From Campylobacteraceae bacterium (GTDB lineage: Bacteria > Campylobacterota > Campylobacteria > Campylobacterales > Sulfurovaceae), in the NCBI GenBank assembly GCA_027014605.1, contig JALWDJ010000003.1, positions 1-52,130 on the forward strand: a stretch of DNA of 52,130 nt, read 5' to 3'. Under the pieces are notes generated by a model. That model was given only the letters and a program-made list of their open reading frames with translations, was not told the DNA's origin and did not search any database. Made by a program: the position numbers and the translations under genes. Position 1 is the first letter of the stretch; every line of letters starts with the position of its first letter. Shown one piece after another: positions 30,147-45,469 of this stretch.

Positions 30147-30302
30147 ATTAATTCCTTTAAAATATTTTATATATAATATATCTATTTTTTTTTTAAATAT
30201 TAATATATAGATACTTTTTTTTATTATAAAAATTAATAGTGTCTCTTTTTAACCCTAATTTAGTTAAAATCAGCAATTAATTTTTGCATGGAGCAACTAA
30301 AT

Positions 30303-31223
30303 ATGAATAAATCAAAATATATATGGATGAACGGAAAATTTATTCCTTGGGATGATGCTAAAGTTCATGTATTAACACATACACTACACTATGGAAATGG
30401 AGCAATTGAAGGAACAAAAGCATATAAAACAGTTGATGGAAGATGTGCTATATTTAAACTAAATGAGCATACACAAAGATTGCTAAACTCATCAAAAATG
30501 ACACTCATAACTGTACCATACACTTTAGAAGAGTTAAACCAAGTACAAGTAGAATTACTTAGAAAAAATAAACTGTTTAATGGAGCTTATATTCGCCCAT
30601 TGGTATATTTAGGTTATGGTATTATGGGACTCTATCATAAAGATGCACCTGTTGAGGTTGCAGTATCTGCTTGGGAGTGGGGTGCATATTTAGGTGAAGA
30701 GGGACTTGAGAAAGGCATTAGATTAAAAATAAGCTCATTTACAAGAACTCCAAACACATCAAGTATGGGAAAAGCAAAAGCAGTAGCTAACTATCTTAAC
30801 TCTCAAATGGCAAAATATGAAGCAGTAGAGGCAGGTTATGATGAAGCTTTACTTAGAGATGACCAAGGTTATATAGCAGAAGCTAGTGGAGCATGTTTTT
30901 TTATGGTGAGAGATGGAAAACTTATATCTCCTCCTACTGATAATACATTAGAATCCATTACTCAACAGACAATTATAGATTTAGCTAATGATATGGGTAT
31001 AGAGGTTATTAGAAGACGAATAACAAGAGAAGAGATTTATATTGCAGATGAGGCATTTCTAACAGGAACTGCAGCTGAACTTACCCCTATTAGAGAGGTT
31101 GATGCAAGGGTTATCGGAGTTGGTGTTAAAGGAAAAATTACTAAGATACTTCAATCAGCATATTTTGATGTAGTAACTGGAAAAAATACTAATTACATTA
31201 AATATTTAACATACATTAATTAA
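30303..31223 (+). CDS. ilvE: Branched-chain amino-acid aminotransferase
   Basis: This PLP class IV enzyme transfers amino groups in the last step of valine, leucine and isoleucine synthesis. It has HTLHYGNGAIEGTKAY near the N-terminus, the PLP Lys within SSMGKAKAVANYLNSQ, then the EASGACFFMVRDG and EAFLTGTAAELTPIREVD signatures. I use the ATG at 30303, since GGAG (30290-30293) sits 9 nt upstream; the in-frame ATG at 30288 overlaps that site. That gives 306 aa, the normal length. It begins the ilvE, prohibitin-like, hisIE run. Confidence 0.94.
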   Translation: MNKSKYIWMNGKFIPWDDAKVHVLTHTLHYGNGAIEGTKAYKTVDGRCAIFKLNEHTQRLLNSSKMTLITVPYTLEELNQVQVELLRKNKLFNGAYIRPLVYLGYGIMGLYHKDAPVEVAVSAWEWGAYLGEEGLEKGIRLKISSFTRTPNTSSMGKAKAVANYLNSQMAKYEAVEAGYDEALLRDDQGYIAEASGACFFMVRDGKLISPPTDNTLESITQQTIIDLANDMGIEVIRRRITREEIYIADEAFLTGTAAELTPIREVDARVIGVGVKGKITKILQSAYFDVVTGKNTNYIKYLTYIN

Positions 31224-33531: not shown

Positions 33532-35112
33532 CTAATTTATTGATAAAACTATTTTTAATACCTCATCTCTTAATGTTTTTTTATCTACCACTTCATCATG
33601 AGATGCCTTTAGAGGAAGCTCTTTTTTATATATAAAAATAGTTGGTATCATATATGTAGCTAAATATCTTTTTAACTCAAATAATATCCTGTTTTTAGGG
33701 ATTTTATTTTTAGCACTATATACTAATACAATTTCCTCTTCTATCTCTTCATTTGGAATACTAAATACAGCACATCTATCTATATCTTTAAAAATCTTCT
33801 CTACAACACTTTCTATCTCTTTAGGGCTTACTCTATATCCATTTGTCTTGATCATATCATCTTTTCTATCTACAAAATAGATATACCCCTCTTTGTCTCT
33901 ATATACAAAATCTCCAGACTGAACAACTATCTCATTTGAGTTTTGGTTACTTAAGTCTATCACCTTATTTAAGATAGAGATATTTTTAAATCTCTTTTTA
34001 GTCTCTTCGGGGCTATTCCAATACCCTTTATATATACCAGCTCCTCTATGTATAAGCTCTCCAATCTCAAAATCTCTACACTCTAAACCATTTTCATCAA
34101 TAATATAGACCTCTACATCAGGTACAGCTTTTCCAATAGAAGTTGGTCGTATATGAATTTGAGATGGTTCAAGATATGTAGAGCGAAATGCCTCTGTTAA
34201 TCCGTGCATTGAGTAGAACTTAACTTTTTTAAAGTAGTTATCTATCTTTTTTATCATATCTTGGGTTATATTTCCACCTGATGAGGTAATAACTCTTACT
34301 CCATCTAACTGTTTAGCTATTGGTAGTTTATGAGGCTCTTCATTAAACATCTTAGCAATATATACAGGCATTAGAGCTAATATAGTAACCTTATCTCGTA
34401 TAAGATGAGCAAAAAAGCTACTAGGTAAGATAAACTTATGGACTGCTAGAGTAGCCTTTTTATATAGAGAGCAGAATATCTGATTTAATCCATAATCAAG
34501 ATTAAATGAGAGAAGTCCAGAGATAATATCATTTTCTCTTAAATCAAGATATTTAGATACTATCTTAGCTCCATCTATTAAGTTTCTATGGCTAATAATA
34601 ATACCTTTCTGCTTTCCATCACTACCAAAACTATATGTTATAACTGCACTATGGTGTCCATGTATATTTGCACTATATTTAGAGTTAAAACATTTATATA
34701 TCTCTCTAAAAGATACTAATTCATCATCTAGTGGCTCATAAGTTACTACTTTACCTTTAAAATCAACTGCTTTGACATTCTCTATTTTTGTTTTATCTGT
34801 AATGATTACTGAGATTGATGCATCATTAATAATATACTCTATCTGATTAGGCTTTAAAAATCTTGTAATTGGAACAATTACATAGTTAGTAGATAGAATT
34901 GCCAATATTGCAATAACCTGCTCTGAACTCTTATTTGAGTATATTCCAATTCTTGCACCCTTTTTTAAATCTAACTGATTAAAGTAGTTTGCTAACTGAT
35001 TAACTTTTTCTAAAAGCTCTCTATAACTATATCTCTTCTCATTCTCAACCAATGCAATCTTATCTGGTAACTCTTTGGTTGCTATCTCTAGTAACTCTCT
35101 TACATTAGACAC
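33532..35112 (-). CDS. AMP-forming acyl/aminoacyl ligase-like protein, A10 lysine apparently lost
   Basis: This 526 aa ANL-superfamily protein is the last gene of the glutamate mutase run. The A3 loop is degenerate (TYSFGSDGKQKG, 159-170, Asp for Thr), A5 reads MHGLTEAFR, A7 is SGDFVYRDKEGYIYFVDR, and A8 is DDMIKTNGYRVSPKEIE, all compatible with nucleotide binding. At the C-terminus, where the catalytic lysine of adenylation is expected (LPxTxxGKxxR), the sequence is LPLKASHDEVVDKK, with Val508 at the lysine position in my alignment. It may have altered chemistry, or use a different lysine. The start overlaps glmL by 8 bp. The substrate is unknown; an amino acid from the mutase is an inference. 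Confidence 0.8.
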   Translation of the reverse strand: MSNVRELLEIATKELPDKIALVENEKRYSYRELLEKVNQLANYFNQLDLKKGARIGIYSNKSSEQVIAILAILSTNYVIVPITRFLKPNQIEYIINDASISVIITDKTKIENVKAVDFKGKVVTYEPLDDELVSFREIYKCFNSKYSANIHGHHSAVITYSFGSDGKQKGIIISHRNLIDGAKIVSKYLDLRENDIISGLLSFNLDYGLNQIFCSLYKKATLAVHKFILPSSFFAHLIRDKVTILALMPVYIAKMFNEEPHKLPIAKQLDGVRVITSSGGNITQDMIKKIDNYFKKVKFYSMHGLTEAFRSTYLEPSQIHIRPTSIGKAVPDVEVYIIDENGLECRDFEIGELIHRGAGIYKGYWNSPEETKKRFKNISILNKVIDLSNQNSNEIVVQSGDFVYRDKEGYIYFVDRKDDMIKTNGYRVSPKEIESVVEKIFKDIDRCAVFSIPNEEIEEEIVLVYSAKNKIPKNRILFELKRYLATYMIPTIFIYKKELPLKASHDEVVDKKTLRDEVLKIVLSIN

Positions 35113-36307
35113 TATGTACCTCTTTCATTCCTAAAGTCCAAATCTTATATTCTCTATCTATAATAATCGCAGGGATTGTATCAAAATGGAGTATCTTTTT
35201 ATAAAAAAATCTAACTATTTTATCTATATCATCTTGACTTAATACTTTTGAGACTCCACCTGTTACTACTATGCTATTTAAAATATCTAATTTTAATGAT
35301 ATATAATCATTGCTATTTTTTGATACTTGATATAAAACTAAAAAGATAGCTAATTGCATTAAAATGGTAGTAGCTTTTAGGGTATCTTCTTCTAAAATAT
35401 TTTCATTTACCATAAGATAATCAAGAAGCTCATATACAAACTCATTATTTTTAGCACCAAATACTAAACTCTCTCTTGATTTATATACTCCAAGTTTTTT
35501 AAAAACTAATCTATCATAACTACTACTTGTTAAAATATTTTTGTTTACTACTAAATCTGTACTATAGTGAATATCTGTAGTTGCTCCTCCAATATCTATG
35601 ACTAAAAATGGGTCTGCTACATCATATAAACTCCTTAATTTGGGAAGAGACCTATTTACAATATATGGAGTTGAGTATATTTGATTAGAAGTAATACTAT
35701 ATAGCTTTTTTATCTCCTCTTTACCTACGATATCATTCTGATATAGATTTGTTAGATACTCTTTTAGTTCATCTTCTCTAATTTGAAGTCTATTATCTAT
35801 AATATTTTCTAAGATTACTAGATTATCTATATTAGATTTTAAAAATTCTCTATCTGTACCGTTTCCAACATATACAATATTAGAATACTTAACTTCTTTT
35901 AAATACTCTAATAGTCTATTGTCAAATTTAGATTTAACCCTCTCAATTCCTCCAGCAATAATCACAACATCAATTATCTCTTTAGGTGGAATTGCTTCAT
36001 CTATCTTAGAATAGAGAAGTGTATCTATAATATTAATACCAGAATTAAATGCTATATTAGTAGCATATTTAATACTAAATAGTGAACTAATCCCAATAAT
36101 AAGGGTACTTAGTCCACCATTTGCAGAGCTACATATAAAAATATCATTCTTTTTATATTTAGATATAATCTCTCCACACTTATTTTTTACATCATTATAT
36201 ATATTAGTAGTAAAATCTCTAAAATATTGATTTGTTTTACCATTAGTACCTATTTTAAAATAGGTACTTCCTATATCTATCTCTAGTCTATTACTATTTT
36301 GGGACAC
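35105..36307 (-). CDS. glmL: Glutamate mutase reactivating ATPase-like protein (GlmL/MutL)
   Basis: This 400 aa ASKHA-fold protein is encoded with B12 mutases and thought to reactivate them by exchanging damaged cobalamin. It has the phosphate-1 motif EIDIGSTYFKIG at residues 9-20, the IAGGIERV segment and a phosphate-2 motif VIDIGGATTDIHY (near residue 237), then VVTGGVSKVLS. The order and motifs match GlmL/MutL rather than actin or sugar kinases. It overlaps the LysM gene by 14 bp and the AMP ligase gene by 8 bp, so the proteins are probably made together. Confidence 0.85.
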   Translation of the reverse strand: MSQNSNRLEIDIGSTYFKIGTNGKTNQYFRDFTTNIYNDVKNKCGEIISKYKKNDIFICSSANGGLSTLIIGISSLFSIKYATNIAFNSGINIIDTLLYSKIDEAIPPKEIIDVVIIAGGIERVKSKFDNRLLEYLKEVKYSNIVYVGNGTDREFLKSNIDNLVILENIIDNRLQIREDELKEYLTNLYQNDIVGKEEIKKLYSITSNQIYSTPYIVNRSLPKLRSLYDVADPFLVIDIGGATTDIHYSTDLVVNKNILTSSSYDRLVFKKLGVYKSRESLVFGAKNNEFVYELLDYLMVNENILEEDTLKATTILMQLAIFLVLYQVSKNSNDYISLKLDILNSIVVTGGVSKVLSQDDIDKIVRFFYKKILHFDTIPAIIIDREYKIWTLGMKEVHSV

Positions 36308-37277
36308 GAATTACCTCTCCAACATGCAATGGTGTGTGAATATTTTTTATTTTATAGTTTGCATCTATAATTTTTTGATATTTTTTACTACTACCATAAT
36401 ATCTTTTTGCAATAGAGTATAGTGTATCACCTTTTCTTACTCTAACTAATCTTGCATTGTTACTATGAGTTATAATTGGTATAATAACTTTTTGTCCAAG
36501 ATGAAGGTGAGAGTGAGAATTTTTTATATCTCTATTAGCCCTTATAATTCTTTTAAAATCCATAGGATTTCCATAATATTTTTCTGCAAGAGAGGCTAAT
36601 GTGTCCCCTTTTTTAACTGTTATTACTCGATATTGAGGTTTTTTAACTTTTCTGGTTTCTGCTTTTCTATCTCCTACAACTCTACTTTCATTTTTATGTT
36701 CTATCTTATCTCCATGATAATTGCTAGACTCTATATTTTTAACATTCTCTTTGGAATTCGGTCTAATTTTAGATGTTACTATTTTATTTTCTGCATTAGG
36801 TGTAATTATTGGCTCTGGAGTTCTAGTAGGAATAGGTTCTTTTTTTAATAATTCCATATTTTGAGAACTAATAATTTTTTGGGATATTGCTAATCTCTCA
36901 GCAGATTTTACATCATTATTATTATCTTCACTTTTCTGTTCAACACAAGCTTTTGGGGTTTGATTTGTTGTGTTATTAGAGTGATTAAATCCTAAATATC
37001 CTAAAAAACCTAAAACTCCAATGGCTACTGTTGATAGTATAATCTTATTACTATTTTCCTTTTTATTATCCTCTTCGCTATGGTAAGTAAACTGTTCATC
37101 TTCATGAATATAGTTATTATTATTTCTATGAAAATCATCAAATTTATCACTTCTATTAAAAAATGAGTCATTAAACTCATCTTGTGCTTTGCGATTTAGA
37201 TTTTCAATATGTTCTAATCTATCTTCTCTATCTCTCTTATAATTCTCTTTGCCATCATGATTATCTCTACCAAACAT
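36294..37277 (-). CDS. Membrane protein with two periplasmic LysM domains
   Basis: This 327 aa protein has a hydrophilic Asn/Asp/Glu-rich N-terminal tail (1-~77, presumably cytoplasmic), one transmembrane helix (about 79-97), a low-complexity linker and two tandem LysM domains (about 216-268, VKKGDTLASLAEKYYGNP, and 276-326, VRKGDTLYSIAKRYYGSS). LysM domains bind peptidoglycan or chitin-like glycans. It is inserted between glmE and glmL in the mutase operon (34 bp after glmE, overlapping glmL by 14 bp), which is unexpected because the mutase itself is cytoplasmic. No catalytic domain is present. Confidence 0.85.
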   Translation of the reverse strand: MFGRDNHDGKENYKRDREDRLEHIENLNRKAQDEFNDSFFNRSDKFDDFHRNNNNYIHEDEQFTYHSEEDNKKENSNKIILSTVAIGVLGFLGYLGFNHSNNTTNQTPKACVEQKSEDNNNDVKSAERLAISQKIISSQNMELLKKEPIPTRTPEPIITPNAENKIVTSKIRPNSKENVKNIESSNYHGDKIEHKNESRVVGDRKAETRKVKKPQYRVITVKKGDTLASLAEKYYGNPMDFKRIIRANRDIKNSHSHLHLGQKVIIPIITHSNNARLVRVRKGDTLYSIAKRYYGSSKKYQKIIDANYKIKNIHTPLHVGEVIRVPK

Positions 37278-37311
37278 TACTTTTCCTATCTAAATTATAT
37301 TTTCCTTAAGA

Positions 37312-38664
37312 TTATAACATAATCCCAATATCATGAATAATATTTTCAACTAAACTCATACCACCCAAATCTATTTTTGACTTCTCATAATCTAAACATC
37401 TATCGCTAATTGGAATATTCCCCCTTTTGTAAAACCGTATATTGTAGTTTTTATCTCTAACTGTAATTGCCTCTCCACTATTTATTATATGTGGAGAGAA
37501 TGGAATATCTATTATACCATTTTTTATGGAGTTAAAAACTTGTCTCCAGAGTGTATCTGCAGGATCATTAAAAACAGCCTCCATAATATCATCTACCATC
37601 TCTGTTAAGTTCTCCTCCTCCTCTTCATCACTAATATTAGGTAATCCTTTTAGTATATTTAGAGTATATTGTGTATTACTAACAGCTCTTGCATTAACTT
37701 CAGGAGTAGGGATACCAAACGCCTCATCTCTTGTTTTAGTGATAATCTTATCAGCTCTAACTAAAGAAGCAATAACGGTGGATGTATTAATTAGTGAATC
37801 TGAAAACTCTTTATCTCTAGGAAATGCACCCATCCATTGATGATATACTAGATGGATTTTAGCATCACTATATCCAAACATATTAGCATATTTCCTTGCT
37901 AATTTTTTTATGACATTAGAGCTAACTATATCTTGTAACATAGAGCCTGTTTGAGAGAAGCTAACAGAAAAAGATTTAACACCCTCTTCTAAGGAGAGTA
38001 ACATCTCTAATAGTTGGATAACTATTACAATAGCAGGAGGTTGAAGTGTAGCAGTAAGTGGACCAAAAGACTCTCTATTTATTGGTTCATTTAATTTTGA
38101 GTAGTCTGCACAGACTTTCTCTACATATTTCCAATATAAAAATGCCTTATCTAATGGAAAATTTTTTGAGTATGGAAGTAAATATGTAATTGGACCACCC
38201 TCTATCTCAAATATCCCAGAGGCTAAAGCAACTTCTATAAGTAATCTTGCATCTGGTGTTCCATGTCTTAGACTTATTGGAGTATCAAAGTGTGTTACCA
38301 TTTCTCTAGTAGTTCTATAGCCATGAGTAATTAATGGATATCCATTTAACATATTTTCATCACTCTCTTCAGATAGTATTAACATTTTTTTTGCCATCTC
38401 ATAATCATTTAATCTTGTATTACTATCTATGGTTAATGGCAAAATATCAACTCCGGCTTTAGTAAACTCCTCATAGAGTTTAAATACCTTTTCATAAGTT
38501 GGAAATCCACCTCTTGGTTGAACTAAGATTTTATTGCTATTTTTAAACTTATGTGATATAAATAGATTTTTACTAGCTTTGCTAATAAAATCTCTTATCT
38601 CATCAAAATCAAAACTATCTGTATATGGGTTATTTGTAATAATTCTTCTCTCTGTCTGAAACAC
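37312..38664 (-). CDS. glmE: Glutamate mutase (methylaspartate mutase) catalytic subunit E
   Basis: This 450 aa TIM-barrel subunit, with GlmS and adenosylcobalamin, interconverts L-glutamate and (2S,3S)-3-methylaspartate. The residues known from the Clostridium cochlearium enzyme are all in place: the arginine claw Arg51 (QPRGG), Arg84 (SNTRLNDYE) and Arg133 (SLRHGTPDAR), Glu155 (EIEGGPITY), Tyr161, Tyr165 and Lys310/Glu314 (KTRDEAFGIPTPE). From Arg84 on, numbering is shifted by a constant 16, which shows very good colinearity. The start codon overlaps the end of glmS by 1 bp. An active mutase is expected. Confidence 0.92.
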   Translation of the reverse strand: MFQTERRIITNNPYTDSFDFDEIRDFISKASKNLFISHKFKNSNKILVQPRGGFPTYEKVFKLYEEFTKAGVDILPLTIDSNTRLNDYEMAKKMLILSEESDENMLNGYPLITHGYRTTREMVTHFDTPISLRHGTPDARLLIEVALASGIFEIEGGPITYLLPYSKNFPLDKAFLYWKYVEKVCADYSKLNEPINRESFGPLTATLQPPAIVIVIQLLEMLLSLEEGVKSFSVSFSQTGSMLQDIVSSNVIKKLARKYANMFGYSDAKIHLVYHQWMGAFPRDKEFSDSLINTSTVIASLVRADKIITKTRDEAFGIPTPEVNARAVSNTQYTLNILKGLPNISDEEEEENLTEMVDDIMEAVFNDPADTLWRQVFNSIKNGIIDIPFSPHIINSGEAITVRDKNYNIRFYKRGNIPISDRCLDYEKSKIDLGGMSLVENIIHDIGIML

Positions 38665-39068
38665 TATCTTTTTCCCTTAAGAGTATCTTCAATAATATCA
38701 AGACCAACATTTAAATCGACTTGATGAAAAACTAAATCGTAACCATAAGCTTTATATTTAGGAATAATCTCCTCCTCTTTTGCCTCTCCTACACTAAGAT
38801 TACCACCAATAACAAATAGTACTCCATCTAAATCAAATCTACTTTTTAAAAAGAGTAAATCTCTACTCCATCCTTCAGCCTCTCCATTTAGTGAAGATAT
38901 AAGTAGAACATTAGCATCTGTCTCGATTACTGCATCTATAAACTCTTCAAGATAGGTATTTACTCCCAAATTAAATACCTCAAATCCTCTCTCTTTTAGA
39001 GAAATTTCAATTAACCTATTGGCTACTACATGAATATCATTCCCTACTACACCTGTAACAACTCTCAT
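38664..39068 (-). CDS. glmS: Glutamate mutase B12-binding subunit S
   Basis: This 134 aa cobalamin-binding subunit has the base-off motif NDIHVVANRL: Asp11 and His13, the lower cobalt ligand. The usual DxHxxG glycine is Ala16. LLISSLNGEAEG and the FVIGGNLSVG segment form the nucleotide-tail binding strands. Its length equals known GlmS (about 137 aa). In methylaspartate fermentation this gene stands next to mutL, glmE and a lyase gene; here there is no methylaspartate ammonia lyase nearby. It lies 49 bp downstream of aguB on the same strand. The name glmS here is the mutase subunit, not glucosamine synthase. Confidence 0.92.
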   Translation of the reverse strand: MRVVTGVVGNDIHVVANRLIEISLKERGFEVFNLGVNTYLEEFIDAVIETDANVLLISSLNGEAEGWSRDLLFLKSRFDLDGVLFVIGGNLSVGEAKEEEIIPKYKAYGYDLVFHQVDLNVGLDIIEDTLKGKR

Positions 39069-39117: not shown

Positions 39118-39990
39118 CTAATCACAATATCTTTTTAATAAATCACCATAGCTACATATTCGCCTATCTCTAAAAAAAGGCCAAATATCTCTAACCTCTT
39201 CAACTCTATCCATATCTATATTAGCATATAAAATTAATTCATCTTTAGAGTTAGCTTTAGATATAATTTCTCCTTGTGGGTCACAAATGAAACTATTCCC
39301 CCAAAAGTTTATCCCTTCTCCTACTCCACTCCTATCTATTTCAAATCCTACACGATTACAAGATGCTACAAATAGACCATTTGCAATGGCATGTGAACGC
39401 TGAATTGTTATCCAACTATCTAACTGCCTATCTTTCTCTCTTCTGCTATCACTCTCAAACCAACCAATAGCAGTTGGATATATAAGTATTTTAGCTCCTT
39501 TCAATGCCATTAATCTTGATGCCTCTGGAAACCATTGATCCCAACAGATTAGAACACCTAATTTTCCAATAGATGTATCTATTGGCTCAAATCCTAAATC
39601 CCCCTCTGTAAAATAGAACTTTTCATAAAAAGCTGGGTCATCTGGAATGTGCATTTTTCTATATTTTCCTCTAAGAGTACCATCACTATCAAAGACTACT
39701 GCTGTATTGTGATATACTCCTGCAGTTCTCTTCTCAAACAGAGATGTAACTAAAACTACACTATTTTTTTTTGCAATATCTGCCCAAAATTGTATATCTT
39801 CCTTAAAAGATGAAGCATATTTAAAAAATTTAGTATCTTCACTTTGGCAAAAATATTCGCTTTGATGAAGCTCTTGGAGTATTACTAATTTTGCTCCACT
39901 TTTAGATGCTTCTTTGATATATTTAACTGTCTCTTTTACTGTCTTTTTTTTAGTTTCATAAAATTTCTGTTGGATTAGTGCTATTTTCAT
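39118..39990 (-). CDS. aguB: N-carbamoylputrescine amidase
   Basis: This nitrilase-superfamily enzyme hydrolyses N-carbamoylputrescine to putrescine, CO2 and ammonia. The catalytic triad is visible: Glu in VILQELHQSEYF, Lys in YRKMHIPDDPAF and Cys in GVLICWDQWFPEASR. YPTAIGW and SCNRVGFE are also typical of AguB. At 290 aa it has the normal length. Agmatine deiminase (aguA) is 0.7 kb away on the same strand, separated by a CAP-domain gene on the other strand. The glmS-glmE run follows after 49 bp and may share its transcript. Confidence 0.93.
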   Translation of the reverse strand: MKIALIQQKFYETKKKTVKETVKYIKEASKSGAKLVILQELHQSEYFCQSEDTKFFKYASSFKEDIQFWADIAKKNSVVLVTSLFEKRTAGVYHNTAVVFDSDGTLRGKYRKMHIPDDPAFYEKFYFTEGDLGFEPIDTSIGKLGVLICWDQWFPEASRLMALKGAKILIYPTAIGWFESDSRREKDRQLDSWITIQRSHAIANGLFVASCNRVGFEIDRSGVGEGINFWGNSFICDPQGEIISKANSKDELILYANIDMDRVEEVRDIWPFFRDRRICSYGDLLKRYCD

Positions 39991-40115: not shown

Positions 40116-40685
40116 ATGTTTAAAAAAATTATATTTGGATTATATTTAATAGCTATATTTATTGGGTGTGGTCAAGAGATGGAAGTTACAACTTCAAATA
40201 ATAATTTAATGAATTTTATTAAACCTTCAAAATCAGAAATATTAAAGGCTATAAATAGAGCTAGAAGTGAACCTAGAGATTGTCATGATGGAGTAGGATT
40301 AAGAGATATAGCAAAACCTTTAAGATGGAATAGTGAATTATATGCTTCAGCTTATGAGCATAGTAGTGATTTAGCAAATAGTAATACTTTCGATCATTTA
40401 GGCTCTGGAACTAAATATGATGCTACAGGAAGTAATAATAATAAAAGAAGTCTATTTTATGAGAGAATTGAAGCAAATGGATATATAGACTATCATATAG
40501 TAGGAGAAAATATTGCAGGTGGACAGAGTAGTCTAAAAGAGGTTATGACAGCACTTCTGAATAGTCCAGAGCATTGTGCTAATATTATGAACCCTGACTA
40601 TAAAGAAGTTGGTGTTGCTATTGTTGTAAATCCTAATAGTGAGTATGGTATCTATTGGACACAAAATTTTGGTGGCAAAAAATAA
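40116..40685 (+). CDS. CAP/SCP-domain lipoprotein
   Basis: This 189 aa protein has the lipobox FIGC (Cys18) and a CAP (cysteine-rich secretory/PR-1-like) domain: INRARSEPRDC, LYASAYEHSSDLA, DHLGSGT, VGENIAGGQSSL, SPEHCANIMNPDYKEVGVA and YWTQNFGG. Bacterial CAP proteins are secreted and of mostly unknown function; the family's conserved His/Glu cavity is kept. It sits alone on the plus strand between aguB and aguA. A second gene of the same type, disrupted by an insertion sequence, is at 45-47 kb. Confidence 0.88.
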   Translation: MFKKIIFGLYLIAIFIGCGQEMEVTTSNNNLMNFIKPSKSEILKAINRARSEPRDCHDGVGLRDIAKPLRWNSELYASAYEHSSDLANSNTFDHLGSGTKYDATGSNNNKRSLFYERIEANGYIDYHIVGENIAGGQSSLKEVMTALLNSPEHCANIMNPDYKEVGVAIVVNPNSEYGIYWTQNFGGKK

Positions 40686-44929: not shown

Positions 44930-45469
44930 CTAATTTGAACAGTATGGTTTTAATTTTTTTCCATTAAGCAAAATATTTCCTGTTTTATAATATTTACAAA
45001 CATAGATATATCCATTTTTAAATCTACCTATTTGATACTGAGATGTAGCACACCCAACCTCTTTTGTATTTTGCCAAATAACTTGTGTATAGTGTCCACA
45101 TTGATACCCTATATCACAACTTCCATCTTCATAGTGATAGTGTGGCTCTTCATCATCAAACCAGTGAGGCATAGCATCATCTATGGTTAAAGGTTTATCC
45201 TTACTAAAGGCGTATAAATTTTCACCATAATTATTTTGATGATTAGTTGGGTCATGTTTAAATTCTCCTGTTGATGCTAAGATATCTGCATAATTTTGTG
45301 CATCTCTTTCTAATTTTAGACTATATTTTAATTGGGAGTCATTAAAATATATACTTCTTTTCTCATTATGTACTTTTATAATATATTGTTGTACTTTTGT
45401 TAAATTATTCTTTATAGGTATATATTCTTCCATAATATTGCTAGATGGTTCTATACTAGCTCTTAGTTG
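44930..45469 (-). pseudogene. 3' fragment of a CAP-domain lipoprotein gene split by IS607-like insertion
   Basis: The frame contains a full CAP domain (NYADILASTGEFKHDPTNH, YGENLYAFSKD, HYEDGSCDIGYQC, GHYTQVIWQNTKEVGCATS, YVCKYYKTGN) but has no signal peptide, unlike the intact CAP lipoprotein at 40.1 kb. The first ATG (ending at 45433) begins just before the domain, and the frame stays open upstream through QLRASIEPSSNI to the element end. The missing start is found on the far side of the element (47226-47330), in the same orientation. A cytoplasmic stub could still be translated from the ATG. Confidence 0.8.

Follow-up and report, generated by a model that had tools for sequence, protein, structure and literature searches.

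The operon and its glutamate mutase

Five genes lie in one run on the reverse strand of the window, by which we mean the whole 52,130-nucleotide stretch analysed, the genome from which it comes being G000. They are, in the order of transcription, glmS (38664..39068), encoding the 134-residue, small B12-binding subunit of glutamate mutase (PF02310; PRK02261), glmE (37312..38664) for the 450-residue, large catalytic subunit, a gene (36294..37277) for a 327-residue LysM protein with a hydrophobic stretch at approximately residues 79-98 and two C-terminal LysM domains, a glmL-like gene (35105..36307) for a 400-residue actin/Hsp70-type ATPase, and a gene (33532..35112) for a 526-residue AMP-ligase-like (ANL) protein that matches PF00501 (AMP-binding). 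The strand and the gaps of -1, +34, -14 and -8 bp recorded in a first-pass annotation of this DNA are confirmed. The title of that annotation called the operon 'fused' to the LysM and ligase-like proteins; the genes are indeed neighbours in one operon but there is no protein fusion.

Upstream of glmS, aguB (39118-39990, reverse strand) ends 49 bp ahead of it on the same strand, therefore the operon transcript may begin at aguB. Searched against Rfam, the window shows no cobalamin riboswitch and no other element. Approximately 2.3 kb downstream of the operon, outside it and on the opposite strand, is ilvE (30288..31223, forward strand), encoding the branched-chain aminotransferase (TIGR01122, 398.9 bits against a cut-off of 245.6) of the final step in isoleucine synthesis. 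Two secreted CAP/PR-1 (SCP)-domain-like proteins, assigned by eye, are also encoded near the operon, at 40116-40685 and 44930-45433.

GlmE scores 385.7 bits against PF06368 (cut-off 26.6) and matches solved clostridial GlmE structures at E ~1e-82; the score of 377 against the equivalog family TIGR01503 is slightly below the cut-off of 390.1. The substrate-binding and catalytic residues of the Clostridium cochlearium enzyme, which we take to be Arg66, Arg100, Arg149, Glu171, Tyr177, Tyr181, Lys326 and Glu330, all have counterparts in the window protein, as the first reading had it, and these are invariant in 61 of 61 sequences. GlmS exceeds the cut-off of PRK02261 (142.9 against 110 bits) and does not reach that of TIGR01501. 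The B12 motif is DxHxxA, not DxHxxG, in all 55 sequences compared, with the aspartate and histidine kept and the glycine replaced by alanine. Judged by sequence, the operon should encode a real, intact B12-dependent glutamate mutase that yields 3-methylaspartate.

The clostridial glutamate mutase of methylaspartate-type glutamate fermentation (GlmS/GlmE, PDB codes 1ccw and 6h9e) has both subunits in common with the window, the two agree at the GlmE substrate, catalytic and cofactor positions checked, and both operons carry a MutL-family accessory gene. The window system differs in the GlmS motif, in a strongly diverged GlmL (73.1 bits against the cut-off of 475 for the GlmL equivalog, NF040745), in having ANL and RraA proteins as partners and in lacking a methylaspartate ammonia lyase (PF07476). 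Neither the window genome nor 98 relatives gave a convincing match to this lyase; the hits were partial and resembled the enolase superfamily (18 bits in the window genome), and no lyase was seen in any cassette. The earlier observation that the mutase occurs without the lyase is thus upheld, and the fermentation route is rejected.

A mobile set of five genes

The ANL alignment was used to scan 84,980 species, giving 199 encoded relatives, and the best 80 of these 199 loci were analysed. The genomes compared are mostly MAGs. The 80 loci are mostly from Campylobacterota, with 27 from Gammaproteobacteria and one from Rhodothermales, and the unit that recurs in them is glmS-glmE-glmL-ANL without a LysM gene. 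GlmL is called in 77, GlmE in 65 and GlmS in 55 of the 80, many of the remaining loci ending at contig edges. Gaps between the genes are mostly -4 to +12, and in some genomes the module is divided, with glmS-glmE apart from glmL-ANL. A search of gene order over Campylobacterota genomes showed the mutase-GlmL-ANL arrangement first noted in the window to be widespread rather than limited to this genome. PF06368 itself is patchily distributed, being present in 27 of 100 relatives and in 10 of 41 genera.

An rraA-family gene is divergent from glmS in 50 of the best 80 loci, and in 42 of the 47 loci with at least 600 bp available upstream of glmS. It was overlooked in the first-pass annotation because in the window genome it is on another contig (C40, 4402-4848); rraA is often unlinked in the genus to which the window belongs. 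Across 99 genomes RraA (PF03737) and GlmE (PF06368) occur together in 23 and are both absent from 68, with GlmE alone in three and RraA alone in five (Fisher p 1e-14, without correction for phylogeny). All three genomes with only GlmE are MAGs, 74-84% complete. Three of the five with only RraA look, from their sequences, to hold other members of the family: the matches in G082 and G085 reach only 62-69 bits, and the G095 protein is longer and 24% identical.

Pairwise distances for RraA correlate with those for GlmE, ANL and GlmL with r values of 0.86-0.89 over 43 loci, and the range among all four proteins over the same loci is 0.86-0.93; the five genes are therefore inherited as one set. In the ANL tree, which has only a midpoint root, all Gammaproteobacteria and the one Rhodothermales sequence form a single supported clade joined to Campylobacterota, a topology consistent with transfer of the module between phyla. 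The module is a mobile set of glmS, glmE, glmL, the ANL gene and an rraA-family gene, and the window operon is a local version in which rraA is unlinked.

The genes downstream of ANL vary by locus (PLD, DUF4956, two-component, methyltransferase, HlyIII, amidoligase and DsbA). Among the neighbouring genes scanned, neither carrier-protein nor peptidoglycan genes turn up repeatedly next to the cassettes, and no other family was seen to recur widely at the best 80 loci. A cluster of the NRPS or macrolactam type was considered and rejected, since neither a carrier protein nor a decarboxylase recurs near the cassettes in those neighbours. In one relative (G002, L159:1442-5477) the glmL-ANL pair shares a contig with Amidoligase_2, Peptidase_C26 and rraA genes, which come after it in that order.

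A possible route from glutamate to isoleucine

The cassette RraA belongs to the HMG/CHA aldolase - oxaloacetate decarboxylase/RraA family (PDB codes 3noj and 1q5x). The HMG/CHA aldolases among its members act as oxaloacetate decarboxylases, and RraA-family homologues in which the metal motif is present would be expected to function as enzymes (PMC5065237). That motif, (D/E)-X20-R-D, is kept in the window genome RraA, where it reads D..RD, and in every cassette-adjacent RraA with a readable motif. What sets the cassette proteins apart within the family is the tie to glutamate mutase, hosts that lack RNase E/G and the proposed substrate. A β-decarboxylase beside a producer of methylaspartate suggests conversion of 3-methyloxaloacetate to 2-oxobutyrate; a demonstration of RraA acting on 3-methyloxaloacetate was not found in the literature.

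From the gene identities, conserved residues, gene order, co-occurrence and co-inheritance we infer the enzymatic steps, an isoleucine destination and accessory roles for the remaining proteins. GlmS/GlmE, with adenosylcobalamin, would convert glutamate to 3-methylaspartate, from which an aspartate-type aminotransferase would produce 3-methyloxaloacetate. The RraA-family protein, as a class II aldolase/decarboxylase, would then remove the β-carboxyl group to leave 2-oxobutyrate, which IlvBN/C/D/E would carry to isoleucine, whilst GlmL and ANL would maintain or regulate the mutase. An AspC/TyrB-type aminotransferase gene occurs near rraA in 11 gammaproteobacterial loci; at loci without one a housekeeping enzyme would serve. 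By arithmetic from known reactions the net conversion would be 2-oxoglutarate to 2-oxobutyrate and CO2. It would consume neither ATP nor reductant, which would suit bacteria that use the reductive TCA cycle. We place at about an even chance the reading in which the module turns glutamate into 2-oxobutyrate for isoleucine, with GlmL and ANL as accessory proteins and the LysM protein as a passenger.

In PMC7476758, Abramsky 1962 is cited for a 'glutamate mutase pathway' leading to 2-ketobutyrate. As represented there, the overall chemistry of that route to 2-ketobutyrate/isoleucine is the same as that proposed here; the former is a historical biochemical proposal, the latter comes with candidate genes. 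The literature searched gave no gene assignment for the 1962 route, and the module would supply candidates for a conversion proposed decades ago.

Essentially every relative encodes IlvA, whether it carries the module or not, and the module route would therefore be extra to, not essential for, isoleucine synthesis. The idea that the module replaces threonine deaminase is rejected on the same grounds. Outside the window neither ilvE nor ilvA, the two ilv genes sought, is linked to the cassettes. The near-universal supply of 2-oxobutyrate by IlvA also favours a possible, if unlikely, catabolic use of the same chemistry, with glutamate carbon passing from 2-oxobutyrate to propionyl-CoA or propionate in place of isoleucine. 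A patchy, mobile module is what would be expected of an accessory trait, and the carriers include marine heterotrophic Gammaproteobacteria. However, many other carriers are of the Sulfurovum/Sulfurimonas type, bacteria that are usually autotrophs, the cassette neighbours that were scanned include no genes for propionyl-CoA, methylcitrate or 2-oxoacid dehydrogenase metabolism, and no further family is widely recurrent there. The isoleucine route for its part leaves the constant presence of ANL unexplained.

GlmL, ANL and the cofactor

GlmL is assigned to the MutL family (PF13941, 92.7 against 27 bits) and has a predicted ASKHA (actin/Hsp70-like) fold, with Z values of 11-13 to pantothenate kinases, PilM and FtsA. 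Superposition of the model on the diol dehydratase reactivase 2d0o gives a Z of 11.0 but an rmsd of 23. The model points to an actin-like ATPase, and GlmL is probably a reactivase or chaperone of the mutase. The ANL and actin-like assignments are both confirmed by fold searches, which pick out no single function. The ANL gene is paired with glmL across the module loci, and this linkage to GlmL, not to any downstream enzyme, suggests that the two are accessory proteins that maintain or regulate the mutase. This is the weakest part of our account, though it does pair an ATPase of the GlmL type with an ANL protein dedicated to it.

The ANL protein retains motifs A4, A5, A7 and A8, with Asp206 of A4 invariant and Lys422 of A8 invariant in a 15-sequence alignment. 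The catalytic adenylation lysine of A10 is valine in the window; read by alignment column, it is missing from 50 of 81 sequences and present in 31. The P-loop is variable. These features bear on the suggestion, made in the first-pass annotation, that the ligase-like protein activates methylaspartate. One alternative reading would have ANL activate 3-methylaspartate in the manner of VinN in vicenistatin synthesis, and pass it to an acceptor to form a small molecule or a modified protein or envelope component, with RraA acting elsewhere in the route. Systems of the VinN type, which serve vicenistatin-type macrolactams, likewise combine a glutamate mutase with an ANL protein, and that of the module may bind methylaspartate. 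Asp206 and the bulky Tyr207 that follows match VinN Asp230-Phe231, and the A5 loop, one to two residues shorter than in LgrA domains, places a single arginine, Arg310, near the position of VinN Lys330/Arg331. The closest NCBIfam relative is the exosortase-A-associated ligase (TIGR03098, 430.4 bits against a cut-off of 592.35), NRPS A domains are among the PDB matches, and the VinN complex with 3-methylaspartate is a top structural match to the predicted fold, tied with many others (Z 42.7, rmsd 2.7, 374 residues). The module differs in that GlmL is always present, the A10 lysine is unconserved and no carrier protein, PLP decarboxylase or PKS was seen in the neighbours scanned. With the adenylation lysine absent from the window protein itself, we consider activation of methylaspartate unlikely.

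Adenosylcobalamin supply presents a difficulty. A PduO/EutT-type cobalamin adenosyltransferase was found in none of 99 genomes, and BtuR scores over the cut-off in only four, with none in the window genome, an absence there that counts against the proposed mutase route. A gap in the production of adenosylcobalamin by these bacteria is thereby exposed. The window genome encodes CobS and an adenosylcobalamin mutase, and neither known adenosyltransferase family was found in it. A speculative thought, which we rate as rather improbable, is that GlmL and ANL form a maintenance system of a new type, serving an adenosylcobalamin mutase, in which an ANL protein that has lost the adenylation lysine would be a ligand-sensing or cofactor-handling partner of the actin-like ATPase, in bacteria where no known cobalamin adenosyltransferase family was found.

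RNA regulation and the LysM gene

The RraA of the window genome scores above the cut-off of TIGR01935 (136.1 against 123.8 bits), a family named 'ribonuclease E activity regulator RraA', and might on that basis be a regulator of RNA degradation that is simply carried along with the mutase genes. We regard this as very improbable. RNase E/G (PF10150) was found in none of 31 Campylobacterota genomes, the window genome and 30 relatives. RraA accompanies GlmE across genomes even when unlinked, and it retains the metal-site aspartate that is absent from Escherichia coli RraA, in which the motif ends R-Q with glutamine in place of the final aspartate. Under the isoleucine reading, RraA-family proteins of bacteria that lack RNase E would have a metabolic role.

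The LysM gene is inside the operon only in the window genome, G006, G015 and G017, and adjoins glmL in G005; it is missing from the same operon elsewhere, both in Campylobacterota neighbourhoods and in the best 80 ANL loci. In G024 (L050:9106-11106) a CHASE2 histidine kinase gene lies between glmE and glmL, the site taken by LysM in the window. The restriction of LysM to near relatives and the occupation of this junction by another gene in G024 mark the junction as an insertion point. LysM looks like a late, local insertion, a lineage-specific passenger outside the conserved module. The first-pass proposal that methylaspartate, or a compound made from it, ends up in the cell envelope, with the LysM protein binding the wall there, can point to the 14 bp overlap of LysM and glmL in the window and to the adjacency of these genes in five related genomes, but loses its main support with LysM confined to the closest relatives and no peptidoglycan gene recurring beside the cassette, and we give it hardly any credence.

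In several Campylobacterota lineages rraA or the glm cassette adjoins serC and a phosphoglycerate-dehydrogenase-like gene (L155:4390-7206, on contig C40 of the window genome, L049, L083 and L065). The class V aminotransferase next to unlinked rraA, considered as a candidate pathway enzyme, is SerC and, lying beside the dehydrogenase-like gene, was counted as neutral. This adjacency may reflect shared synteny or a site of insertion.
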